Of a DNA stretch of 64,000 nt, positions 37,329 through 59,712 are shown piece by piece. Each line of letters opens with the position of its first letter. Position 1 is the stretch's first letter. The position numbers were made by a program, and so were the translations under genes. Where the stretch lies: assembly GCF_012184425.1 (NCBI RefSeq), contig NZ_VTOW01000004.1, forward strand, positions 186,001-250,000, given 5' to 3'. Source of the stretch: Candidatus Manganitrophus noduliformans. GTDB taxonomy: Bacteria; Nitrospirota; Nitrospiria; SBBL01; Manganitrophaceae. A model generated the notes under the pieces. That model made no database searches, was not told where the DNA came from, and saw only the letters and a program-made list of their open reading frames with translations.

Positions 37329-38717
37329 ATGGACCGGCGTTACATCTTATTCATTGATCTTGGCCCCGATTCATGCCTCGATCAAAATCTCTTGCAGATT
37401 CAAAAAACAATCGGAGAGGCCCTTCCTCTTCAGAAGATACTTCTTGAGACCATCAACAGCATCATCCCCTCTCGGCCTCTCTCCTATACACCCGATCTGA
37501 TCCTTTTCCGACCCTGCTCTACAATCCTTCTTGAAGAGGCGCTCAACCGCTTGAGGGAGAGATGGGGGCCGATTCCCATCGTCGGTCTGGTCTGTTCAAA
37601 ATGGGTTGCTTTACACGAGCTCTATTCGATTCTCATTAACCGGCTCGATGATTTTCTCTCCTGCCCATGCAGGGAGATCGATCTGATTCTCCGCCTTCGG
37701 CGCCTTCTCTGTCGGAATAGAAAGAGCGCCGAAGAAACAAAAGGAGATCCTCGCCTTGAATCATTGGTGGGAGAGGAGCGATGCTTCGTTGAAGTGGTAG
37801 AGAAGATCCCGCTTTTAGCCCGATCCGATGCCGCCGTCTTGATTTCGGGAGAGACCGGAACCGGCAAGGAGCTTTTCGCGCGGGCGATCCACTATCAAGG
37901 CCCTCGACGAGGAAAGCCGTTTATTCCGGTCAACTGCGGGGCGCTGCCCGATCATCTCTTTGAAAATGAACTCTTCGGCCATGCAAAAGGGGCCTTTACC
38001 GACGCATCGCAAGAGGCGGCGGGGCTGATCGCCGAAGCCGAGGGGGGAACCCTCTTTTTGGATGAGATCGACGCGATCAGCCCTTCGGCTCAGGTCAAGC
38101 TCCTTCGTTTCCTGCAGGACCGGGCGTATCGTCCTCTTGGCGCCGCCAAAAGCAGGGTGGCCGACGTCCGGATCATCGCCGCGAGCAATGCGAACTTAAC
38201 GGAATTGGTGGAGGGCAAGCTCTTTCGACAAGATCTTTATTACCGCCTCCATGTCCTCTCCCTCACCGCTCCCCCCCTCCGAGAGCGGAGCGGCGACATC
38301 CCGCTTCTGGCCGCTCATTTTCTGGCGAAATATGCGAACCAGTATGAAAAACCGGCGTCTTATCTTTCCCATCGTGCCCTTCAAAAATTGCTTGCCTATC
38401 CCTGGCCGGGGAATGTCCGGGAATTGGAGGGGGTGTTGCAAAAAGCGGTTGTTCTTGGCTCCTCCCCGCTGCTTCAGCCGGAAGCGATCCATCTTCCGGA
38501 GCCTCCCCGGCGGGAAGCGTCGGGAGGGGACTCCCTTCAAGCGGTCAAGACCCGGGCCATTGCCTCCGTTGAGCGGGCCTACCTGAGCGACCTTCTGACA
38601 AGACATCAAGGAAATATCACACAAGCGGCAAAGGGGGCCGGGAAGAAGCGCCAGGTGCTTCAGCGGCTTCTTCGAAAATATGGACTGGAGCGCCAGACCT
38701 TCCAGAAAACGCTCTGA
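37329..38717 (+). CDS. Sigma-54-dependent transcriptional activator (Fis-type HTH)
   Basis: A 462-residue enhancer-binding protein. Residues 1-130 look like a degenerate receiver domain (ILFIDLGPDS, TPDLILFRP) and lack a clear full set of acceptor residues. The AAA+ domain has Walker A GETGTGKE (174-181), GAFTDA (221-226; the usual loop motif is GAFTGA, one position changed), Walker B TLFLDEID (241-248), FRQDLYYRL and the PWPGNVREL sensor. The C-terminal helices (RHQGNITQAAKGAGKKRQVLQRLL) form a Fis-like HTH. It precedes two palindromes and a sigma-54 promoter at 38739-38927, its likely targets. Confidence 0.9.
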   Translation: MDRRYILFIDLGPDSCLDQNLLQIQKTIGEALPLQKILLETINSIIPSRPLSYTPDLILFRPCSTILLEEALNRLRERWGPIPIVGLVCSKWVALHELYSILINRLDDFLSCPCREIDLILRLRRLLCRNRKSAEETKGDPRLESLVGEERCFVEVVEKIPLLARSDAAVLISGETGTGKELFARAIHYQGPRRGKPFIPVNCGALPDHLFENELFGHAKGAFTDASQEAAGLIAEAEGGTLFLDEIDAISPSAQVKLLRFLQDRAYRPLGAAKSRVADVRIIAASNANLTELVEGKLFRQDLYYRLHVLSLTAPPLRERSGDIPLLAAHFLAKYANQYEKPASYLSHRALQKLLAYPWPGNVRELEGVLQKAVVLGSSPLLQPEAIHLPEPPRREASGGDSLQAVKTRAIASVERAYLSDLLTRHQGNITQAAKGAGKKRQVLQRLLRKYGLERQTFQKTL

Positions 38718-38738: not shown

Positions 38739-38756
38739 TGCAACCGAGAAGTTGCA
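38739..38756. promoter_or_regulatory. Palindrome 1, probable activator-binding site
   Basis: TGCAACcgagaaGTTGCA, a 6-bp perfect dyad with a 6-nt spacer, starting 22 nt after the stop of the sigma-54 activator gene. Confidence 0.65.
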
Positions 38757-38831
38757 CAGGTGCCATATTTCTGTTGCAGTTGTGATCCTGTTGTTTTTCA
38801 AAGGAATTCCAGGAATTTTCCCCAATAGTGG

Positions 38832-38849
38832 TGCAACCAAAAAGTTGCA
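38832..38849. promoter_or_regulatory. Palindrome 2, probable activator-binding site
   Basis: TGCAACcaaaaaGTTGCA, identical arms to palindrome 1, centre 93 bp away, or close to nine helical turns. Half-sites (GTTGCA at 38773, TGCAAC at 38897) lie nearby. Confidence 0.65.
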
Positions 38850-38911
38850 TCACTGGTCTAGCTTAATAGGAAAACACATGATAATTCAAAGAGATATGCA
38901 ACTCTTCCTTT

Positions 38912-38927
38912 TGGCATCCGATTTGCT
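38912..38927 (+). promoter_or_regulatory. Sigma-54 promoter (-24/-12)
   Basis: TGGCAT, five bases, then TTGCT: a full match to the TGGCAY-N5-TTGCW pattern except natural variation. It is 63 bases downstream of palindrome 2 and 37 upstream of the start of the 94-residue gene. Confidence 0.75.
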
Positions 38928-38963
38928 AATCCCCTGTAGGATTTCTCGGAGCCGGTCTTTACC

Positions 38964-39248
38964 TTGAATCAAGATGACACTGGCAGCCGTCAAGTGATCA
39001 TCCGGGATCTTTTTCGCTACCTGGTCGCGAATCCGGATGCCAAGGATACGATCGAAGGCGTCCTGCAGTGGTGGCTTCTGAAAGGTGGCACGGCTTTGGG
39101 GGTGAGGGAGGTTCAGGAGGCGGTCGATTTCCTGGTTTCAAAAGAGTGGTTGATCGAAAGGGAGGCGACTCCTTCCAAAAAGATCTACGGGATGAACAAG
39201 AGCCGCATCAAAGAGATCAGGGCATTTATTGATGAGTTTGAGGACTAA
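38964..39248 (+). CDS. Small winged-helix-like protein driven by the sigma-54 promoter
   Basis: A 94-residue protein starting with TTG at 38964 behind GGAG. It has LFRYLVANPDAKDTIEGVLQWWL, a conserved-looking DAKDTxEGxxxWWL motif, and VREVQEAVDFLVSKEWLIERE, reading as a winged helix. It is read from the sigma-54 promoter just upstream. The function is unknown; pairing with the activator suggests a regulatory partner or its effector. Confidence 0.6.
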   Translation: MNQDDTGSRQVIIRDLFRYLVANPDAKDTIEGVLQWWLLKGGTALGVREVQEAVDFLVSKEWLIEREATPSKKIYGMNKSRIKEIRAFIDEFED

Positions 39249-39707: not shown

Positions 39708-40170
39708 GAGAGGGGCCAGATACGGATTGCGGGTATCGCCGCGAGTTTTCCGAGTCGAGTTGTAACCAACGAAGAAGTGTTGGCCTTGATTACCCGGCGC
39801 AGCCAAGGAACCTTTCAGGGCGATTTCAGGCGGACCGCCAGACGGATTCTGCACCTTCTCAACTATTCCGGGATCGAATGTCGCCGATGGCTCGCTCCGG
39901 GCGAGTCGCCCATCCGATTGCTCTCCGAGGCGGTGGCAAGGGCCGAGGCGGGCTGTGGGCCTTCGGAGATCGATCTGCTCGTCTACGTCGGCGGCGGGTT
40001 CCGGGATCCCGGCAATGCCTAGATGATCGCCCATGCGCTCGGTCGTGCTTCGACGTCCGGGACGCCTGCATGAGATGGTCTCGCGCCCTGCAACTTGTCT
40101 ATAACCTTTTCAGGGGCGGCCGGGCGTACCGGCAAGCTCTCATCGTGAACGCCGAGTGCAATATGTTCAT
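39704..40170 (+). pseudogene. Ketoacyl-ACP synthase III-like pseudogene
   Basis: Starting at GTG, one base of shift leads into RIAGIAASFPSRVVTNEEVLALI, a FabH/KAS III N-terminus, followed by GIECRRWLAPGESP and CGPSEIDLLVYVG. The frame then meets a stop at GNA-stop-MIAHALG, where the family has a Tyr, and further frameshifts split DACM...ALQLVYNLFRGG and the following strand. The catalytic Cys region (DACMRW) survives only in a shifted frame. The C-terminal half is gone. Confidence 0.65.
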
Positions 40171-40244
40171 TCATTTTGAGGTCATAACCTACAGGCCCAA
40201 GACAATTCTGGAAGAACCAATTTAAGTTCAAGGAGGTAACTGCA

Positions 40245-42875
40245 ATGCAAAAGGCTATTGTCTGTAGCATGGACGAAGAATTCTTGAGATGTGGGACAGA
40301 GTTTTCGGATAGGTTTGTCTCTTCCTATTACTTCGTCCCCTTATCCATAACCTTTGATGATAGCGAGACCCCTATTTTACCGGAATATAAGAAAAGGCGG
40401 TTCCCAATGATGCACCTACGGGACCCACTTTGGTTCGACAGGGTAAAGGATATCGCTGAAAAACATGCGATTCTACTGCCGGACTTGCTGAAAAAAAATG
40501 AAATAACACTACCGCCAATTGGTCCCGGCCCTGACGCCGGCCTTGGTATTGCTAACCGGCCTGAAATTCGCTACGTCGCGAAAGATAAAATTAAAGACCA
40601 TGTTAAAGATGTTAAAGATTTCGCTGTCCTGCTGAAAAGCAGGGTCTCTGAAAGCGATCGAGGGATGGTCGATCTAATCGAAAGAAAATTGACAGAACTC
40701 AATGCTGCAGTCGAAGCGGCCCCTGAGATGTATAGCACACCAACAGAGAGCGTAAGCATGGCGATCAGTGCCGCAGTGGCTGGTACAATGACACCCTCCG
40801 CCGGTTCGAACCAGGCTCAACAACTTGATTTTTTCCTCAATGCAATTAAATCAGATGTGGGCTATGTTTTTTTTGACAGGACACGTATTAGACCGAAAGG
40901 TTTTACAGTAGGCGAGCATGTCTATACCCTAAGCTTGGCACCCGGAGAAGAAGTCGTCTTGGAACAAAAGACCTTCTCGAAGAGGTCGACGACTTTTGAA
41001 GAACAAACCGAGCAAGAAAAACAATTTGATCTTGAATTATCAAGTACATTAACAAACGAAATCCAAGAAGGCTTTGAACGACAAACAAGTCTAACCGATG
41101 CGAGAGGATTCCAAGTAGGCGGGTCGGTCGGCGCGCAAGTAGAGGTGGTGAAAATAGATGCTAACGCTTCTCACTCTCGCAATATCACTGAAGCCGATAG
41201 CCAGACAAAGTCACGTTCGATCAAACAGAGTCAAACTGCAAGTTCGAAAACCGCTTCGAAATACCGGACGCAACACAAAGTAACATTTAAACTCTCAACA
41301 GAGGAAGGCTTTGAATCCACCGCTAAGAGAGTGATAAGGAACCCAAACAAATATACCGCAGTTGATCTGCATTACTTCAAAATCCTGCGAGTGCTTGAGG
41401 TGTCTCAGGAACGATACGGGGTTAGGCTTTGTTGGGCGCCGTACATCCAAGACCCTGCCTTTGATTTTATAAAAAGGATTAGAGATGGAAGAAGCAAAAT
41501 CATACAGGATTCACAAAACAATATTCAGCTCCCACCGGAGCCGACACAGCCTGCGGGAAGAACCGTACCAAATCTAACTGAGTTTGGATCAGTGCATGTT
41601 GATAAATGGGATTGGTGGGATGGTAGCACCCCTGACTCTCCTGCCGATCGTAGCTACAAAATTAGGATAGACGTGCCGACAAACTACAAGTGGAATAGTG
41701 ATATCAATACTGTTAAGAACAGCATAAGATTGGACACCGCCATGCAAAGAACCGCCTTCGCTGAGCCGGACGGCGATCCCTATCTTAGCGGCAATGAAGT
41801 AATAATTCCGGTTAAAGTAACCGTCAGTAGCAGGCCGCTGTGGGCATATTTGTCGCTGAACTTGATGGCGGTAGCGTTAGCATTTGTGAATCCCCCGGCA
41901 GGGGCAGTAGCAGTCGCAGCAATGTGGGCAGCTCACTTAGTATCTAATCAGGTGGCAGAACAGGATAAAAAGGCCATGAATGAGTTTTCGCCTGTTTATG
42001 TTCAAGCTCAGGTCCGGTTTGAACCGGATCCGGCCACCCATCCTGACTTGCAGGCATATAAAGCTGACTTAGATGAATGGAAAATAGAGCACGATAAGTG
42101 GAAAGGAGATAAAGACACTCTACTTAAAGACGCACATGAAAAGGGAGTAGAAGCTGCTAATGATTGGGAACAAGAAACTCTGAAACAGCACAACCCCATT
42201 GCAGAGATGATGAATATCATCATTAACAAGTACTTCACACCCAGCGTACGCGACGAGGGCTGGGAAATCGACATGTGGCAGAAACTGTTTGACTGGGATG
42301 CAGCTTCATATGTGCTTTATCCAAGCTGGTGGTCGGGTCCTACGCTCCGCGATTCCACTAAGGAACCAGCAGATTTCTTTAATGCCAGTTGGGCGAGATT
42401 ATATCTGCCTATCAAAATGGGTAAAATAGGGGGGACAAGCGTAGAGCGTATTGCCTTAAGGTGGATATTCGATAAGGTTACAAATGGTAACCTTATCGAC
42501 CCAAATAAGGAAAAGACATTCACGAATATTGAAACGGAGCTCGCTAATTACCGTAAGAGTTATTTCGGGGATGATCAGGAAACTAATATTGTATCCAGTA
42601 CAGGGGAAGAGTGCCCTGAGCTCAAAGAGAAATATACCTGTCTCGCCCATTGGACAGAGTTGATGCCAACAGATGGGACGCACATTGAAGTGATTCAAAG
42701 CATGACCAGCGCTGCGGATCAATTCAGCAAGAATGAGGTTGATGATGCCAACGCCCTCCGAAATGCCATGATCGAAAGCGAAAGGCAAGATGTTGAACTG
42801 AAGAAGAAAGCCCTAACTCAAGTAACGCAGCCAGCAAATGTAGAGGTGAGGATCAATACCGACAAAGAGGACTAA
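40245..42875 (+). CDS. Large hypothetical protein of an AT-rich cassette
   Basis: An 876-residue protein without signal peptide, behind AAGGAGG. Residues 195-400 hold a distinctive block: GYVFFDRTRIRPKGFTVGE, YTLSLAPGEEVVLEQKTFSK, then alternating charged beta-like repeats (EEQTEQEKQFDLELSS) and YFKILRVLEVSQERYGVRL. A hydrophobic stretch (about 527-565) could be one or two membrane helices; after it come long charged helices. I know no family. The DNA is clearly richer in A+T and uses different codons from its neighbours, so it was recently transferred. It overlaps the next gene by TAATG. Confidence 0.7.
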   Translation: MQKAIVCSMDEEFLRCGTEFSDRFVSSYYFVPLSITFDDSETPILPEYKKRRFPMMHLRDPLWFDRVKDIAEKHAILLPDLLKKNEITLPPIGPGPDAGLGIANRPEIRYVAKDKIKDHVKDVKDFAVLLKSRVSESDRGMVDLIERKLTELNAAVEAAPEMYSTPTESVSMAISAAVAGTMTPSAGSNQAQQLDFFLNAIKSDVGYVFFDRTRIRPKGFTVGEHVYTLSLAPGEEVVLEQKTFSKRSTTFEEQTEQEKQFDLELSSTLTNEIQEGFERQTSLTDARGFQVGGSVGAQVEVVKIDANASHSRNITEADSQTKSRSIKQSQTASSKTASKYRTQHKVTFKLSTEEGFESTAKRVIRNPNKYTAVDLHYFKILRVLEVSQERYGVRLCWAPYIQDPAFDFIKRIRDGRSKIIQDSQNNIQLPPEPTQPAGRTVPNLTEFGSVHVDKWDWWDGSTPDSPADRSYKIRIDVPTNYKWNSDINTVKNSIRLDTAMQRTAFAEPDGDPYLSGNEVIIPVKVTVSSRPLWAYLSLNLMAVALAFVNPPAGAVAVAAMWAAHLVSNQVAEQDKKAMNEFSPVYVQAQVRFEPDPATHPDLQAYKADLDEWKIEHDKWKGDKDTLLKDAHEKGVEAANDWEQETLKQHNPIAEMMNIIINKYFTPSVRDEGWEIDMWQKLFDWDAASYVLYPSWWSGPTLRDSTKEPADFFNASWARLYLPIKMGKIGGTSVERIALRWIFDKVTNGNLIDPNKEKTFTNIETELANYRKSYFGDDQETNIVSSTGEECPELKEKYTCLAHWTELMPTDGTHIEVIQSMTSAADQFSKNEVDDANALRNAMIESERQDVELKKKALTQVTQPANVEVRINTDKED

Positions 42876-44395
42876 TGATGTCAGCAGTTAGTTTGGCTCC
42901 GCTACAAAAGAAGAAACCATACCTACCGCCGCCACCGTACTATTATCCTACCCCAACCAAATTCAAGGCTACGCTGACGAAATTAAAAGAGAACTTGAGG
43001 TCCAAGCTGCTCGCTCGTTTTCCACCTCCGGAAAAGAAATCCCGACCGTATCACGATACCGAGAGAACCCTGCTAACTTCCATGGACAACATGGAAGCAA
43101 TGATTACAACGTACCTGGAGGTTAAGCCTGTGGAGCCGGTGCTGGTAGGAATGACGATTTTCCCTACATTGTCTGGTTCGGTAGGCCGGCGGAAGCCCAC
43201 ATTTAAGAGCAGCGCGGTGGGAGATTTCTACGTTCAAGTCGCCCCCCTGGTCCAGAGAGTTGAGACTGACCTTGCCCCAGAAGCCTTTCCGGTCGATGAT
43301 TGGCAACAATTCTTGCCGAAATTTGAAGAGCATATGGCTTGGGTTAAAATCGTCCGATTGTGCATCGTCATAACGATGGTAAATGCCTTAGACTACAAAA
43401 GTATATGGGGAAAAAAAGATGGAGATGCTGGCTGGTCTCTTTCTGAGAGGGCAAAGGACTGTGCTGCTTTTATTTTGAAGTTAGAGGCTTATAATGAGAT
43501 AAGTATTCACCTTTTGAACGAAGATACCTTCTTGGAAGATTTGGGTTTGAGGAACAGTGTTCAAACTTACATACAGGCTATTGAGAGCCTGATTCGTGAA
43601 GTAAATATTTGGCAAAACTGGTGCAAGCTTAAAGTCTGTTCCGTTGGGGAACTTGGCGAAACTTATCCCTGGGAATTTAAACCTATTCCGCGAGATCTAT
43701 TTTCGGCGGGCGATCTAGTTTCTGCACCTTTTCCAGTTGAGATGTATGCACGGGATGGCGCGATAATCAAAGCAGCGAAAGTGAAAAAGTTGTGGGACAA
43801 CCTTATTGAGAGGGGGGTAGTATCAAACGACTTTCAATTCTGTATCACTGCAGGGACGCTTAAACATGGAGGAGCCCATCCGCCACACATTGAACACAGG
43901 AATGGTTCAATGTTCGACTTTGACCTGAAAAATCTTCCAAATTTGGTGGGAAGAGAGGGGCCTGCAACTCTCGTCGTTACCATGGGACAGCACGTTGAAG
44001 AGGAGCCAATAGGAGTTGTGTTAGAACTTGAATACTCTCTGGGAGATCGCCTCTTTGACTGGGATTTTCCTCCGCACAAAAGGTATGAGGAGTTTTATAA
44101 CGTAGCTAAGAAATTCACCAAGTGTATTTATCTGACCTTCCCAACTTCTGTCCTTTATGCCTCTGAGAAAATAACAGTACAGGCTAAGAAGGAATTATTA
44201 ATACGCATAGACGAATTACTTGCAACTACGATAGATAAAGCAAACATTGCAGATCTCAGTGCCATTAGAGAAGCTATTAAAAAGATCAACCCAACACCGT
44301 GGAAGGGAAAGCCAAAGGAAAAACAGGACAAAATGAGATTACAACATAGGCACCATTGGCATGTTAATTATTCTCCAGACACGTTCGGTGAGTAA
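42875..44395 (+). CDS. MepA-like (peptidase M74/LAS) murein endopeptidase-domain protein
   Basis: A 506-residue protein. The C-terminal half has GGAHPPHIEHRNGSMFDFDL (residues 332-351) and HHWHVNYS (493-500). The first matches the penicillin-insensitive murein endopeptidase pattern GGxxPPHxxHxxGxDxD, with zinc ligands H341 and D348 spaced H-x6-D; the last gives the HxH pair H494/H496. This is the LAS metallopeptidase arrangement. The first 330 residues are unassigned and helical, after a Pro/Tyr-rich start. No signal peptide. If the fold is right it cuts peptidoglycan cross-links, so it must reach a cell wall by another route. Coupled to the 876-residue gene. Confidence 0.6.
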   Translation: MMSAVSLAPLQKKKPYLPPPPYYYPTPTKFKATLTKLKENLRSKLLARFPPPEKKSRPYHDTERTLLTSMDNMEAMITTYLEVKPVEPVLVGMTIFPTLSGSVGRRKPTFKSSAVGDFYVQVAPLVQRVETDLAPEAFPVDDWQQFLPKFEEHMAWVKIVRLCIVITMVNALDYKSIWGKKDGDAGWSLSERAKDCAAFILKLEAYNEISIHLLNEDTFLEDLGLRNSVQTYIQAIESLIREVNIWQNWCKLKVCSVGELGETYPWEFKPIPRDLFSAGDLVSAPFPVEMYARDGAIIKAAKVKKLWDNLIERGVVSNDFQFCITAGTLKHGGAHPPHIEHRNGSMFDFDLKNLPNLVGREGPATLVVTMGQHVEEEPIGVVLELEYSLGDRLFDWDFPPHKRYEEFYNVAKKFTKCIYLTFPTSVLYASEKITVQAKKELLIRIDELLATTIDKANIADLSAIREAIKKINPTPWKGKPKEKQDKMRLQHRHHWHVNYSPDTFGE

Positions 44396-44421
44396 CGCAG
44401 TATTCGAGGCTTGTACAGAAC

Positions 44422-45309
44422 ATGGATATTGCCGCAGCTAAAAAAAAAGAAGGGCTATGGAAGGAACTGTTGGAAGATCCGATAGTTTTTGGAAATTCGA
44501 ATTTTTTCTCGCTCCTCAAGACCAGAGGAATTCCAATGGCGGTGGGAAAGGATAGCGAAGACCCTGAAGCCAATTGGGCGGTTGTAGAGGCATCGAAAGT
44601 TGATCTAAAAATCATTGAATACACGGTCGCAGGCAAAACTATTCATGATGCGGTCAAGGACTTTTCGGATTCTTCGATAATCATCAATGGTGCCATGTTC
44701 AACCCCAAAGGAATTGATCCTCCAAAGACAATTGGCTTACTCTATGATCAAGGGCAGCGTCTTTCGACCTCACTTGATCCCCAAGCAACGCCAGGGACTC
44801 AGGAAGCCAAATTACTGAATGTGGTCCGCAAGAGATTCACCTTCGGGCAAACTTCTCCAGGTAGAGGCATACGTTCATACAAATACGGTCAAAACGCTAC
44901 GCTACCATTTGTCGAACAAATCAAAACACACGTCACTGGTCTTTTTTCATTCATAAGATTCGGGGTAAAGCAAACAGTGAACGATGACAAAGACCTTAAT
45001 GTATTCTTCGATATGCAGCAGGATTGGAGGGGTATAGGAATAATTGGAGTAGCTCCAGAATCTGGCTATCTTTTGTTTTATGCTCGGGAAGGTGGAACAT
45101 ACGGCAGACATACGGATGACATTCAAGAAGCGCTGGTTAATATGGGTGTAAGAGATGCGTTCTTGGTAGATGGTGGGAGCTCTGTGGCGCTTGCAGTGAA
45201 TGGTGCTGTTGTGGTCGCTTCGGACAGGCATGAGGATCCTAACCTGATTGCTACAGTTACAAACTATTTAGTATTTTATCCAAAGCAAAAGGCAGTGCAT
45301 GCCAAGTGA
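44422..45309 (+). CDS. Phosphodiester glycosidase (NAGPA-domain) protein
   Basis: A 295-residue protein whose last 200 residues match PF09992: SSIIINGAMFNPKG, the GxGIRSYKYGQN region, LLFYAREGG, then DAFLVDGGSSVALAVNG, the conserved active-site strand. The family removes GlcNAc-1-phosphate caps in animals and is found in bacterial and phage envelope-active proteins. No signal peptide. It starts 26 nt after the M74-like gene and shares its AT-rich base use, so it completes a three-gene envelope-directed cassette. No terminator seen after it. Confidence 0.75.
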   Translation: MDIAAAKKKEGLWKELLEDPIVFGNSNFFSLLKTRGIPMAVGKDSEDPEANWAVVEASKVDLKIIEYTVAGKTIHDAVKDFSDSSIIINGAMFNPKGIDPPKTIGLLYDQGQRLSTSLDPQATPGTQEAKLLNVVRKRFTFGQTSPGRGIRSYKYGQNATLPFVEQIKTHVTGLFSFIRFGVKQTVNDDKDLNVFFDMQQDWRGIGIIGVAPESGYLLFYAREGGTYGRHTDDIQEALVNMGVRDAFLVDGGSSVALAVNGAVVVASDRHEDPNLIATVTNYLVFYPKQKAVHAK

Positions 45310-45774: not shown

Positions 45775-45951
45775 GAGTCATTGTCTGCGAAGTGACTTTT
45801 TAATGTGTCAGGATTGTGTCATAACTCGTCTGAATAGGTAGAACCGGTATGAAAAGAAAACAATGTATAAAAGAGTTTTTTTCTTGTGAATCAATTGCAT
45901 TGGGAGAAACCAGCCGAATCACAAGGACTTATGTTATATTTCTTTTTGGGA

Positions 45952-45996
45952 TTGCCAAGGCGAGGGTCGCGGGTTCAAATCCCGTTTCCCGCTCCA
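45952..45996 (+). other. 3' portion of tRNA-Gly(GCC), probable att site
   Basis: TTGCCAA (anticodon loop with GCC), the T-arm GCGGGTTCAAATCCCGT and TTTCCCGCTCCA with the CCA end match the second half of a glycine tRNA. No 5' half (GCGGGAA...) precedes it, so it is not a gene. A partial tRNA left by site-specific integration marks one end of an integrated island. Confidence 0.7.
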
Positions 45997-46256
45997 AATT
46001 TTAATCAATTTTAAGTAGAAGCGATTGATTCCTGCCGATGTTACCCGTGACCCTCTGTGGGTTCCGCGACGAATACAATAAGCGAAGCTTCCCCTCGGCA
46101 CGCTCCCTATCATTTGGGAGAGCCGATCCGGTTTCCTGCTTCAACACAATCCCGCCATTCCCTGAATCATTCGCCTCCCTCTCCGTTGTAAGCGCTTTCA
46201 CGGACCGCCCTTCCATGTCGGTGTTAATCTAATTACATCCGATACGGAGGGCTGTC

Positions 46257-49933: not shown

Positions 49934-50030
49934 GGCGGGTTCTGCGACGGCAACCGAATTTCCGCGAGGCTTCCGCTTGTGAACGCGCGCGCGTCGCATT
50001 CCTTGCGGCTTGTTGCGGGGAGCTTCAATG

Positions 50031-51065
50031 TCACATCAGCCACCTTTTTTTCATTAATGTATAGGAGAAAAAACAGGCCGCCAGACCGGCCAAAAGCAAG
50101 TAGGCCCATTCCAGGGCGAAATTCGGGAAGCGGTTTCCCTCCAAAAGAATCGCCCGGATCGGCTCATAGAGCCGATAGGAAGGGAGGAGCGGCGCCACCG
50201 CCGTCAATTTTTGAGAAAAGTCGGACAAGGCGGAGGGAAGCAGGTGCGGCAGATAAAAAAGGACGCCGAGGGTTCGGGCGCTCGCCTGATTGCGGCACAA
50301 AAAACCGACAAAAATTCCAAAGGCGCTGAAGCAGAAACTCCCGGCGATCAGAAAGGCCGCATAACTCAAGCCCCCTCCCGGATCGAATTGAAATCTTCCG
50401 AGCAGATGAAGAAAGAGCACGCCGGCGCCGGTTAAAGTCATCCCGAAGAATAACTTCGCCGCCAGCCACTCCGTCTCTCGGATCGGCGTTTGCAAAAGCC
50501 CCAGGAGGAGTTTCTTCTCTTTTTCTTCGGCCACCTGCGCCGGCAAGATGATAAAGCTCACCAGCAGAACCAGCATCAAGACCCAGGTCGGCAGGGTCTG
50601 CTTTTGGACCGCGGTTTCCTGAAGCGCCCGAATCTCGGAAATCCAGTGCTTGCGATTCCCCTCGACGGCATTTTGCAACGCGGAAACGCTTTCGATGATG
50701 GCGAGCGTTTGGAAAGAGGCCTTTGTCAAAACGATCAGCGCCAAACGGGGAGGCTCTTTCTCGGAGGGGATCAAAAGGCCGTCCCCTTTTTTTTCTTTCA
50801 ACCATGCTTTCCCTTCCGCTTCATCCGCAAACCGGAAAACTTCGAATGTCTGATCGGCGGATCGGAGGCTTTCAATCATGGCTGAGGAATAGTTTCCTTT
50901 TTGAATCAGCCCGATTTTTATTTTTTGAAGGCCGGCATCGCTCTGATCGACGAGCTGCAAGGTGAAGAAAACGAACAGAGGGGTAAAAAGGATCAGGTAG
51001 AGGCTCTTGTTCTTGAATGCCATCGCCAGATCATTCGAGGTCAGCGTGACGATATTCCTGATCAT
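50031..51065 (-). CDS. ABC-2-type transporter permease
   Basis: A 344-residue membrane protein: one N-terminal helix, a 150-residue extracytoplasmic loop, then five helices (from about 160), the ABC-2 layout. VAEEKEKKLLLGLLQTPIRETEWLAAK is the typical coupling segment. Overlaps the ATPase gene by four bases. Substrate unknown. Confidence 0.85.
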   Translation of the reverse strand: MIRNIVTLTSNDLAMAFKNKSLYLILFTPLFVFFTLQLVDQSDAGLQKIKIGLIQKGNYSSAMIESLRSADQTFEVFRFADEAEGKAWLKEKKGDGLLIPSEKEPPRLALIVLTKASFQTLAIIESVSALQNAVEGNRKHWISEIRALQETAVQKQTLPTWVLMLVLLVSFIILPAQVAEEKEKKLLLGLLQTPIRETEWLAAKLFFGMTLTGAGVLFLHLLGRFQFDPGGGLSYAAFLIAGSFCFSAFGIFVGFLCRNQASARTLGVLFYLPHLLPSALSDFSQKLTAVAPLLPSYRLYEPIRAILLEGNRFPNFALEWAYLLLAGLAACFFSYTLMKKRWLM

Positions 51066-55297: not shown

Positions 55298-57646
55298 TTA
55301 AAACTCCATCGTCAGATAGGCCACCGCCACCTGCGCCCGGTAGTCGGGGACCGACCCGCTCAGGGTCACAACAGTCGGAATGGTGGCGGAGCCGGGAACG
55401 ATCCCGTCTGTCGCAAAATCGTCCGATCGGTAACTCTCATATAGAAAGCTCGCCCCCACGCTCAGCCTCTCGGTCACTCGGTATTGTCCCGAGAGCTCGA
55501 CCGAATGGAGCTCGGTCGTTAAATCGGGGAGGTCGGCGGCGGGGGGGAGGGCCGGTCCGGCGGTCACCCCGATGGCGACGTTCGACTTCGAGACCGAGTA
55601 GAGGGCGCCGAGGATCACCCGATTCTCCATCAGGCTCACGTTGACGCCGGCGCCGAAGGTGTCGGTCCGATCATCCTGATCGATCCGCCAGTTCCGGTTC
55701 GGATCGAGATAACCGGGCTCGGGGGGCTCTTCAAAATTTCTCCCCGCCTGCCGGATGTCGATCTGCTGCCGGGTGTAATAGCCGTAAACGGAGAGGATCT
55801 CCACCGGGGTCACGGAAACGTCGACCGTGACGCTTCGATCATCCCGGTTTTGCAAGCCGAGCACCGAATCGTCGTAATCATCTCCGATGCGATTGTAGTG
55901 AAAGCCGACGGTGGTCGTCTCGTGGGGAAAGGTGGTCAGCTGGGCGCCGTATTTGACCCGATCCCGGTCGGCGATGTCGAATTTCCGGAGCAGGGGATGG
56001 TTTTGAAATCGAAGGGCCGGGTCGGCGATCGTGTTGATGTACTCGGCCGAGTGGATCTCATTGAAGAGCTTTGCCTGGTCGTAGTCGTCCACCCCTTTTC
56101 GGACGCCGGAGGAGGCGTTGAGGCCAATATGCGCCTTGGAGAAATAGGTGGAGCGAAGGCCGGCCCGGACCGTATTCTCCCGCGTCTTGTTGATCTCCCG
56201 GTAGTCTCGCTCGATCGTGTCGATGTCGTATCCCGCTTTCACGCTCGTCCCGGCCGCCAGATAATAGGCGGCGTCGAGCTTCATCTGCTCCTGCGCCCAA
56301 TCGTAAGGAAGGCTGTAGTGCGCGTTCACGGAGGCGATGTCGGCCTGGGTTCCGAGGACGTTGTCGGTCTTCACATACAAGAAGAGATCTCGCGGCATCT
56401 TGTTTTTGGTCGTATAGTTTCGATATTGAGCGTCGAGCGAGAGGCGCGACAGCGGTCGGGAGGCGACCTTGAGCCAAAGAAGCCTTGTGTCGATCTCGGC
56501 GTCGGACGTTCTCCTTGGAAGCAGGCTGGTGTCGGTGCTGGTGGAAAAGGGGAGAAGGTCCTCGTTTTGCTTCATCTGGCCGAGACCGACCCAGGCGGTC
56601 ACCCGGGTGGCATAAGGGAGGTTGATCCCCCCCGTCAGGTGGAGATTGTGCGCCTGGTTGTCGGGGTAGAGCTGGTGCCGGGCCTGAAAGCCGGTGGAGG
56701 GCATCGGGCTTTGATACGGCTCGAAGGTGAAGGTCGGCGGATTAAAATGGACGTCGAACGGCGTGCTCCAACGGAGCGTCTCTTCCCGATTGTTGAACTG
56801 GGAGTAGTGATAAACGAGCTCCGCCTGGCTCCTCTCTCCGCCGTAGGAGACCGAGGCCTTGATGTCGTCGGTGATATAGTCGATCGGCTCCGGCAGGATG
56901 ATGCTCCGGGCATCCCCGCCGTTCGTTCCGACCACCCCGCCGAGCGAGCCGATCCCTTCCTTGTATTCCCTCTTGAAGGATAAATCAAATTGAATCAGGC
57001 CGATGACATAGGAGTAGCCGGCGGTCGCCGCCTTCCGCTTCACTTCCAAATCGACCTCCTTCAGACTGCTCTGAAGGGTGAGGAGGTCTTGGGTGTTCGC
57101 CCCGGTGACGAATCCGGCGGGGAGGGTCAGGTTGCCTCCCCCGGCGCCATGGAAGGGGGTTTGGCTCGTATTCGAGCTTCGCCGGATCGTTTCGTCGTAA
57201 TTCAAAAGAATTTCATACCGCCCGTACCGCCCGCTCTTCAACGACAGATGCCGGTTCTCCAGGCCGAGATCTTCCGCCAGAAAGTCCATATGATAATCAT
57301 TTCGGTTGAAATGGAGGTCGGCGTCTCCGACGAAGAAGAATCCGTCGTCCGGGATCCGGTCATACTCGGCGAATTTGAACGACTCGTTGTCGAGCCGGAC
57401 CCCCCCGCCGCCGACGGTGACCCGCCCGTGCCACCGGTCGATTTCCGACGGCTCTTCCTTCGCCTCCATCGGCACCGCCTCTTCCAGCGGGGCATTCTCT
57501 TGGGACATTTCGGGTGGTTCCGCGGCCGGCGCCTCTTCGGCGCTCGAGTGAAGCGGGATCGAGAGAGGAGAGAGTATTAAAAATCCGGCCAACAGCAGCT
57601 GCTTCAGTATTGTTTTCCTCTTTTCGTTTTGATCTTCGCGCGTCAT
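55298..57646 (-). CDS. MtrB/PioB-family outer membrane beta-barrel of a porin-cytochrome complex
   Basis: A 782-residue protein from the ATG at 57646, which overlaps the cytochrome stop by ATGA; GAGG is 9 nt ahead. A signal peptide (about 1-35) is followed by an acidic linker and then a long run of alternating strands such as GFFFVGDADLHFNRNDYHMDF, RYGRYEILLNYDETI and SRLSLDAQYRNYTT (each near a turn), ending in aromatic VAYLTMEF. This is the MtrB/PioB barrel that holds a decaheme cytochrome and lets electrons cross the outer membrane. No Cys motif is present, unlike some MtrB. Confidence 0.9.
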   Translation of the reverse strand: MTREDQNEKRKTILKQLLLAGFLILSPLSIPLHSSAEEAPAAEPPEMSQENAPLEEAVPMEAKEEPSEIDRWHGRVTVGGGGVRLDNESFKFAEYDRIPDDGFFFVGDADLHFNRNDYHMDFLAEDLGLENRHLSLKSGRYGRYEILLNYDETIRRSSNTSQTPFHGAGGGNLTLPAGFVTGANTQDLLTLQSSLKEVDLEVKRKAATAGYSYVIGLIQFDLSFKREYKEGIGSLGGVVGTNGGDARSIILPEPIDYITDDIKASVSYGGERSQAELVYHYSQFNNREETLRWSTPFDVHFNPPTFTFEPYQSPMPSTGFQARHQLYPDNQAHNLHLTGGINLPYATRVTAWVGLGQMKQNEDLLPFSTSTDTSLLPRRTSDAEIDTRLLWLKVASRPLSRLSLDAQYRNYTTKNKMPRDLFLYVKTDNVLGTQADIASVNAHYSLPYDWAQEQMKLDAAYYLAAGTSVKAGYDIDTIERDYREINKTRENTVRAGLRSTYFSKAHIGLNASSGVRKGVDDYDQAKLFNEIHSAEYINTIADPALRFQNHPLLRKFDIADRDRVKYGAQLTTFPHETTTVGFHYNRIGDDYDDSVLGLQNRDDRSVTVDVSVTPVEILSVYGYYTRQQIDIRQAGRNFEEPPEPGYLDPNRNWRIDQDDRTDTFGAGVNVSLMENRVILGALYSVSKSNVAIGVTAGPALPPAADLPDLTTELHSVELSGQYRVTERLSVGASFLYESYRSDDFATDGIVPGSATIPTVVTLSGSVPDYRAQVAVAYLTMEF

Positions 57647-58668
57647 CGTTGGAACCTCGCTCCGGACGGGTGGCTGGAACCATGGATTTGGCTGTGGCAA
57701 TTCACGCATCCTTTCCCGACGAGCCGTTGGGAAGGGGCCTCTTGCGGGGAGGGGGGGCCTCCCGGCAGGTTGGTTCCGCTGTAGAGCCAGCTCGGATGGA
57801 AGACCTCCGAATGACACGACTGGCAGAGCTGCGGCGGCCGCATCTTCAGCAGGCTCGGAAAATTGGAGCCGTGCGGTTCGTGGCAATTCGAGCAGCGCTC
57901 CCGGACCGGCGGATGCTCCCAGACCATCGGTCCCCGCTTTTCGGCGTGGCACATGTAACAGGTGTCGTTCACCGATTCGGTTTTCAGAAGCGACGGTCCC
58001 GGCCCGCCGTGCGGGTTGTGGCAGCTGGTGCAGGTCATCTTTCCCTCCCGCAACGGCATATGGGACGACTTCATCAGCTGCGCTCTTTTATCTTTGTGGC
58101 ACTGGGTGCAGACCTGCTTGGGATCTTTGGCGACCAGGAGCGCTTTCGCGGAGCGCGGCTCCGAGAGGTAATGGCAGTTGCTGCAGCCGACGTTGCTCAT
58201 CTCATGGAGGCTCCCCTGCCAGTGCATCCGCTCCCCCTTTTCATGGCACTGCAGGCAGACGGAGTCTCTCTGTTTCTGCGTGAGGGGACCGTCCGCTTTC
58301 AGGGAGAGGCGGAACTCCGGGACCCGCGGGCGCTGGACATGTTTGCTCTGGGGACCGTGGCAGGCCTCGCAGTAGCGCTCCTGGAGCGGGTTTTCGGGGT
58401 GACTAGTGAATCGTTTGCTGTGGGTCGTCTTCTCGAAGGTGTGGATGTACTCTTCGTGGCATTTGGCGCAGACCTTCACGTCGCCGACATATTCCGAATC
58501 GGCCATCGTCGGGTTAATCGCAACCCAGTTCACCGGTCCGGCCGCCTCCGCGGCGACTGCAAAGAGGCCGAAGGTTGCGACCATCCCGATCAGCACCGCC
58601 GATCGTCTGAAGATCTCTCGAATCCGACCCCGCTCGAATAGGAAATTGGGACCCTGCCCCTTGCTCAT
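57643..58668 (-). CDS. Decaheme c-type cytochrome (MtrA/DmsE/PioA type)
   Basis: A 341-residue exported protein with ten CXXCH heme sites: CAKCH, CEACH, CLQCH, CSNCH, CTQCH, CTSCH, CYMCH, CSNCH, CQSCH and CVNCH. Signal peptide ends near AEAA. AAGGAGG lies ahead of the ATG. Ten hemes and a directly following MtrB-type barrel define the MtrA/DmsE family, which threads through the barrel to carry electrons over the outer membrane, either outward to metals or inward from Fe(II)/Mn(II). Confidence 0.95.
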   Translation of the reverse strand: MSKGQGPNFLFERGRIREIFRRSAVLIGMVATFGLFAVAAEAAGPVNWVAINPTMADSEYVGDVKVCAKCHEEYIHTFEKTTHSKRFTSHPENPLQERYCEACHGPQSKHVQRPRVPEFRLSLKADGPLTQKQRDSVCLQCHEKGERMHWQGSLHEMSNVGCSNCHYLSEPRSAKALLVAKDPKQVCTQCHKDKRAQLMKSSHMPLREGKMTCTSCHNPHGGPGPSLLKTESVNDTCYMCHAEKRGPMVWEHPPVRERCSNCHEPHGSNFPSLLKMRPPQLCQSCHSEVFHPSWLYSGTNLPGGPPSPQEAPSQRLVGKGCVNCHSQIHGSSHPSGARFQR

Positions 58669-58683
58669 GAACGACCTCCTTGT

Positions 58684-59712
58684 CTATTTGATCTTGACCG
58701 CCTTGATCATCCCTGTCGACGAACCCAACCCGATGCTGATCGGAAACGAGACATAATGTCTTCTCTGTTTCACCTTGTCGTCATGGACCGCCACACCGAC
58801 GGAGATCTCGTCCCCCGGCGCCAGCTGCACATCGTTGGCATCTCCGGTCTGGAGCTTTCTCTTCAGAACGACGGTATATCGTCCATCCTTCCAATCACCG
58901 CTCCCTTCGACATCGGCCTGCTTGTCTTTGAGCCGGTCGGCAAAAATCGACCAATCCTCGGACTCGGTCTTTTGTCCGGAAAATTTCACCCGCCAGAGAT
59001 CGATCAGTCCCCCCTCGCTCAAAAGTTTTTTCAGATCGGCCTCTTTTTTCATCGAGGCCCACCCTTCCTCTTCCCGGGTATAGAAGGCATAAAGCCGGAG
59101 GTCGTCCCGTTTGAGTGGGCCGTAATAGGGGTGGCTCTCCAGTTCCTTTTTGGAGGGGGTTTCGATCATCGAGGTGAGGAACTTATGACAGGCGACGAAA
59201 CAGCCGTATCGTTTAAAAGCGTTCTGGCTCTTGTTGACCTGAACCGCCACCGAATCGAAGCGTTCTTCCCCCGCCATCGCCGGCTCCTTCCAGCTTGTTC
59301 CGTTCGACTCCCAATCAAATCGCAGATATAAATAGTCGTCGTCGTACGCCGCTTGGACGTTGACCTTGAGGAATCCCTTTTTTCCGGGGATCGGATCGGG
59401 CTCGAAGTGTTGGCTCGACCGCTTCATCGTCAGTTTGCCTGCGGCGATCTGCTCCGCCCCGAGGTCGAGATTGCCGGTCGCTTCGTCGAGATGGCATTCG
59501 ATGCAGGCCCGCTCCCCCTTCTTGATGTTCTTGCCGCCGAGGCGGTGGCTGTCGCTCAAGAGGAATTCCCAGGAGGCGACGCCCGGATAGAAAAGGGTTG
59601 CTTTGAAAGGGGGGATCTTCTCCCAGCCGATCTCTTGTGCCGCGCCGGCAGACGGCCGCCCCGCCGATGCAACGATCCAAACCAACATTAGGAATAAACG
59701 CAATGCCAACAT
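58684..59712 (-). CDS. Ethylbenzene dehydrogenase-like heme protein with c-type site
   Basis: A 342-residue exported protein. CIECH (C70-C73-H74) binds one c-type heme. The body resembles the EB_dh family, which carries an axial heme in a beta-sandwich: FLKVNVQAAYDDDYLYLRFDW, and the late LAPGDEISVGVAVHDD. A second motif, C171-FVA-C175-H176, has three residues between cysteines. GAGGGAG precedes the ATG; 15 nt to the next gene. Likely a periplasmic electron carrier between the inner-membrane and porin-cytochrome steps. Confidence 0.8.
   Translation of the reverse strand: MLALRLFLMLVWIVASAGRPSAGAAQEIGWEKIPPFKATLFYPGVASWEFLLSDSHRLGGKNIKKGERACIECHLDEATGNLDLGAEQIAAGKLTMKRSSQHFEPDPIPGKKGFLKVNVQAAYDDDYLYLRFDWESNGTSWKEPAMAGEERFDSVAVQVNKSQNAFKRYGCFVACHKFLTSMIETPSKKELESHPYYGPLKRDDLRLYAFYTREEEGWASMKKEADLKKLLSEGGLIDLWRVKFSGQKTESEDWSIFADRLKDKQADVEGSGDWKDGRYTVVLKRKLQTGDANDVQLAPGDEISVGVAVHDDKVKQRRHYVSFPISIGLGSSTGMIKAVKIK

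Follow-up and report, generated by a model that had tools for sequence, protein, structure and literature searches.

A sigma-54 activator with dyads and a -24/-12 promoter behind its gene

Bacterial enhancer-binding proteins (EBPs) of the NtrC/NifA type combine an AAA+ sigma-54 domain with a Fis-type helix-turn-helix (HTH) and use upstream activator sequences, which typically lie 70-190 bp upstream of a -24/-12 promoter. Extracellular contractile injection systems (eCIS) are nanosyringes that inject toxins. A 2021 survey (PMC8213781) names, in its main text, eCIS regulators of the GerE/LuxR, BTAD and RfaH types. The locus described here lies in a stretch of 64,000 nucleotides from Candidatus Manganitrophus noduliformans (hereafter the window; contig NZ_VTOW01000004.1, positions 186,001 to 250,000). 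Its EBP shares with NtrC/NifA-type proteins the AAA+ domain, the Fis-type HTH and dyads 70-190 bp upstream of such a promoter, but differs from them in a receiver domain without phosphorylation residues, an operator class of its own and a constant partner gene, which encodes a small predicted winged-helix protein (sWH). Like the regulatory genes of the survey, members of this family stand beside eCIS operons, whereas their sigma-54/EBP mechanism is not described in the survey's main text. We consider it very probable that EBP, dyads, promoter and sWH form a self-contained sigma-54 regulatory cassette.

The window EBP was assigned on the basis of an AAA+ domain (PF00158, 1.6e-63), PF25601, a GAFTGA-like loop (GAFTDA) and a Fis-type HTH (PF02954) just under cut-off, together with the adjacent -24/-12 promoter and its upstream dyads; none of the NCBIfam EBP cut-offs was reached. 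The genome encodes one copy of RpoN. A preliminary description, made from the sequence alone, had placed two identical TGCAAC-N6-GTTGCA dyads 93 bp apart, extra half-sites and a TGGCAT-N5-TTGCT promoter in the 246 bases behind the EBP gene, followed by a small winged-helix-like gene with a conserved DAKDTxEG motif. These elements were recovered as described, the conservation of the motif included, the winged helix being that of a predicted model, and a third, imperfect dyad (dyad 1b) was added to them. The 246 bp spacer between the EBP and sWH genes thus holds all dyads, the half-site and the promoter, and transcription is expected to start near 38938. The features are as follows.

37329..38717, + strand: sigma-54 activator (EBP), 462 aa, intact, stop at 38717; Pfam Sigma54_activat (1.6e-63), AAA_lid_14 and HTH_8; loop GAFTDA
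37329..37757, + strand: pseudo-receiver domain of the EBP (residues 1-143), with a predicted receiver fold that lacks phospho-Asp and Lys; Cys16, Cys89, Cys112
38640..38687, + strand: EBP recognition helix, GKKRQVLQRLLRKYGL; GK[DE]RR[AST][FL]QRL in its kin
38739..38756: dyad 1, TGCAACCGAGAAGTTGCA, exact TGCAAC-N6-GTTGCA, centre at about -190
38761..38778: dyad 1b, TGCCATATTTCTGTTGCA, imperfect with two mismatches, centre at about -168
38832..38849: dyad 2, TGCAACCAAAAAGTTGCA, exact TGCAAC-N6-GTTGCA, centre at about -97
38897..38902, + strand: extra half-site TGCAAC
38912..38927, + strand: putative sigma-54 promoter (-24/-12), TGGCATCCGATTTGCT, sole consensus match in the window, position kept in relatives
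38964..39248, + strand: sWH, 94-aa predicted winged-helix protein with an NPDAKDTxEG-WW motif, TTG start likely, conserved behind the EBP
40245..45309, + strand: possible downstream genes (876, 506 and 295 aa) without assigned function; operon membership doubtful because of a decayed stretch and a GC drop in between

When up to two mismatches were allowed, the dyad was found three times in the window, all copies within 111 bp. The genome-wide scan that the preliminary description had suggested returned only two exact copies in 5.17 Mb, both in the EBP/sWH spacer, and at up to two mismatches it revealed no other genomic target. Two copies with one mismatch are located elsewhere in the genome, inside long open frames; the genome totals at one and two mismatches were 4 and 73, close to the 4 and 61 of a reversed-pattern control. 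The promoter pattern TGGCAY-N5-TTGCW occurs once in the window, where 0.04 matches are expected.

From anatomy, conservation and covariation between helix and dyad, we infer how the cassette might work. The Fis-type helix of the EBP would recognise the TGCAAC-N6-GTTGCA dyads at the three sites (about -190, -168 and -97), the dyad-bound EBP would loop onto sigma-54 RNA polymerase at 38912-38927, and its AAA+ domain would open the promoter, leading to transcription of sWH and possibly of genes beyond it. As far as sequence comparison reaches, the interpretation as a regulator beside its own putative operator and promoter is supported.

Conservation and helix/operator covariation in relatives

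Relatives of the EBP with about 45-55% identity were found in records labelled Acidobacteria, Nitrospirae/Nitrospira, Syntrophobacter and Deltaproteobacteria, and a sWH profile detected sWH directly behind the EBP in seven loci from this search. Most Nitrospirota loci found by a sWH search likewise contain the pair. In the tree, the EBPs of the family form one clade (100/99), separate from the other EBPs that the genome encodes; the EBP of the window is part of a large group (94/93) holding all members with a TGCGGC operator, and the second family member of the genome (operator TGGGRC) lies outside that group. Judged from these comparisons, the EBP/sWH pair is a widespread cassette across Nitrospirota, Acidobacteriota and other phyla.

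According to the preliminary description, absence of the dyads from homologous loci would speak against the proposal. Exact TGCAAC dyads are indeed absent from the homologous spacers of relatives; dyads of the same 6-6-6 geometry, with half-sites matching the helix class, are present in that spacer upstream of the sigma-54 promoter across phyla, so that the objection holds for the letters and not for the arrangement. The usual dyad is TGCGGC-N6-GCCGCA. Counted at 10 or more of its 12 letters in ten representative loci, it has 16 occurrences within the spacers (3.1 kb together) and 22 in the 149 kb beyond them. Four loci whose helix reads NRRAFWEL carry CAGGAC-N6-GTCCTG (4 copies in 1.3 kb of spacer versus 7 in 58 kb outside), and the eCIS locus of the own genus, with the helix DRRAFRRL, carries TGGGRC-N6-GYCCCA. 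The window spacer holds three TGCAAC dyads, versus none outside, and no match to the TGCGGC, CAGGAC or TGGGRC dyad motifs. Overall, dyads of the matching class are enriched 25- to 34-fold in the spacers, a figure that is partly circular, since these spacers also supplied the motifs.

The spacing of the dyads recurs as well. In Nitrospira-family loci two dyads start about 72 bp apart (spacer positions 13 and 85), similar to the 71 bp between dyads 1b and 2 of the window, and the 22 bp between dyads 1 and 1b resemble the 23 bp found in the eCIS locus of the own genus. When 395 genomes were searched for a dyad followed after 40-68 bp by a sigma-54 promoter, 18 matches from two genera were obtained in 18 genomes, all 18 directly upstream of sWH by coordinates, versus none for the reversed pattern used as control. 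One of them (G140) comes from a locus with DNA not inspected before the search.

The half-site class tracks the class of the EBP recognition helix. In the TGCGGC class, identity is 74% over the recognition helix and 45% over the whole EBP; for the third helix of sWH the value is 29%, versus 32% for the whole protein. Among EBPs with a clear dyad, only that of the window replaces the second Arg of the helix by Gln (RRA to RQV), and only its half-site carries AA in place of GG. In protein-DNA contacts Arg favours guanine and Gln adenine. The paired changes are suggestive of a rewired half-site, which would separate the window EBP from the genome's own eCIS EBP with its TGGGRC sites.

Input domain, partner protein and target operons

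The N-terminus of the EBP was modelled as a receiver fold (AlphaFold pLDDT 78; best Foldseek match the DctD receiver, 2.9e-6). In the alignment, the phospho-acceptor Asp and the conserved Lys of two-component response regulators are both lost in the window EBP, and since the receiver fold lacks these residues, the input is probably not phosphorylation. The eight aligned members, the window included, carry a Cys near the end of strand 1, one at the end of strand 4 (Cys89) and a Cys-Pro at the end of strand 5 (Cys112); Cys89 is missing from most Nitrospira-family members, and the Tad-linked EBPs have no receiver domain. In the pseudo-receivers of the window and of its relatives L012-L018 the cysteines occupy the places of the phosphorylation-site residues, the first of them often followed five residues later by another Cys. 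A signal that acts through cysteines or by protein-protein contact is likelier than phosphorylation, and these cysteines might sense redox state or metals, which is a guess.

The winged helix of sWH was assigned from its predicted model only (AlphaFold pLDDT 81; winged-helix Foldseek matches). The modelled fold appears to be shared with small winged-helix regulators such as F93 of STIV (2co5) and the PadR and MarR types, from which sWH differs by Foldseek E-values of only about 1e-3 and by its conserved NPxAKDTxEG-WW motif. It had no match in Pfam, NCBIfam or PHROGs and none in the plasmid collection. As sWH is the first gene of the putatively activated operon, it would most likely be a co-regulator or feedback regulator of that operon.

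Downstream of sWH most relatives carry an eCIS core of Phage_sheath, gp19 tube, Pvc16 and AAA genes (L012, L015-L018, L019 with Pvc16 only, L021, L126, L130, L131, L134, L139 and L141). The loci of the own genus (L092-L096) are eCIS-linked too; there the EBP gene lies on the far side, at a distance of 20-27 kb. The second sWH of this genome (G000:C1:479641-508138; L092, L186, L187) heads a complete-looking eCIS start with sheath, tube, hub, Pvc16 and AAA; its EBP is about 27 kb off, its dyads are of the TGGGRC class, and the layout recurs in genus mates. Five Nitrospira-family loci (L128, L129, L132, L135, L138) have Tad/Flp pilus genes instead of eCIS, and the dyads of Tad-linked loci are a TGAGG-type variant. 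Other loci have a polysaccharide chain-length gene (L140) or a large surface-type protein (L142) there. The cassette is a member of an EBP/sWH family that usually heads eCIS and sometimes Tad-pilus operons, the window copy standing without such an operon. No sheath, tube, Pvc16 or AAA eCIS genes were found in the window, and its assignment to an eCIS locus was rejected.

The window sWH is followed by a decayed stretch and then by the 876-, 506- and 295-aa genes in DNA of 43-48% GC. At 39720-40240 a broken frame resembles ketoacyl-ACP synthase III by eye, the tested piece having no Pfam match; its stops and frame changes suggest decay. In the 876-aa protein (40245-42875) only central residues of about 200-415 have distant relatives, in proteins of 830-1090 aa from Nitrospirota genomes; this stretch also occurs in two records of the plasmid collection, with no known function attached. 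Two genus mates share the backbone at 90% identity from near 45,952 onwards, and positions 30-38 kb have no counterpart in these two genomes beyond AAA+ homology and short repeats, which places the cassette on an accessory island. This island (1-45950, right border near 45,950) encodes TraG_N, an actin-like ParM-type protein, RadC, a UvrD helicase and ribonucleotide reductase, and resembles an integrated conjugative element or plasmid. At 45952-46000 and 49981-50031 lie short stretches (about 48 bp) of a dispersed-repeat kind that recur many times across genus genomes; one of the two sits at the border of the island. At 55298-59712 an MtrB/PioB-type porin gene (Pfam) adjoins CxxCH-rich, multihaem cytochrome-like genes, a combination suggestive of extracellular electron transfer or of the oxidation of metals.

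Alternative readings and implications

The dyads could also be operators through which sWH regulates itself, with the EBP binding elsewhere. The predicted winged helix would fit such a role, as would the eCIS locus of the own genus, in which the dyads adjoin sWH with the EBP gene 20-27 kb distant. Where the operator is conserved, however, it is the EBP helix that is conserved with it and not the third helix of sWH, the dyad class follows the EBP helix class, and 70-190 bp upstream of a -24/-12 promoter is the usual EBP position; we therefore regard this reading as unlikely. Another reading takes the dyads for palindromes that arose by chance or for the terminator of the EBP gene. Arms of only 6 bp would fit it, but it is extremely improbable, given that the dyads are unique genome-wide, clustered, and matched in position and geometry in relatives. 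The terminator version was rejected, as no terminator-like site was found at the dyads.

Somewhat more weight is due to the possibility, still a doubtful one, that the cassette has been separated from a former operon and survives on the island purely by chance, as a relic without present function. A transposase remnant upstream, the decayed stretch downstream, the lack of eCIS genes and the absence of the cassette from genus mates are in line with it, but no damage is seen in either gene, the promoter or the two perfect dyads, and the helix fits the operator; drift alone would not preserve this. Several observations weigh against a functional cassette in which the EBP reads the dyads. Lying on an accessory island between the transposase remnant and the decayed stretch, it may be losing its target. 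The Arg-to-Gln/GG-to-AA pairing is one event and hence suggestive rather than proof, and L142 has an RQV helix like that of the window, yet no TGCAAC dyad. Loci L019, L132 and L142 show no clear dyad, and to this come the circular part of the enrichment and the restriction of the pattern matches to two genera.

A search of the main text of openly accessible papers for published sigma-54, RpoN or EBP control of eCIS returned nothing relevant; on this basis the novelty of such control is not certain. Tentatively, and with less confidence than we place in the cassette itself, we suggest a previously undescribed cross-phylum sigma-54 switch of a pseudo-receiver EBP and a winged-helix partner. It might control contractile injection systems and other surface machines, sense its signal by a cysteine site standing in for the phosphorylation site, and diversify by paired helix and operator changes, the window holding a detached, rewired copy. 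A conserved sigma-54 activator whose putative operator is defined, and which recurs in several phyla beside eCIS and Tad-pilus operons, offers a concrete handle. The natural helix/operator variants (TGCGGC, TGCAAC, TGGGRC, CAGGAC) are a ready test set for the recognition code of Fis-type proteins, including the simple swap of Arg to Gln with GG to AA.
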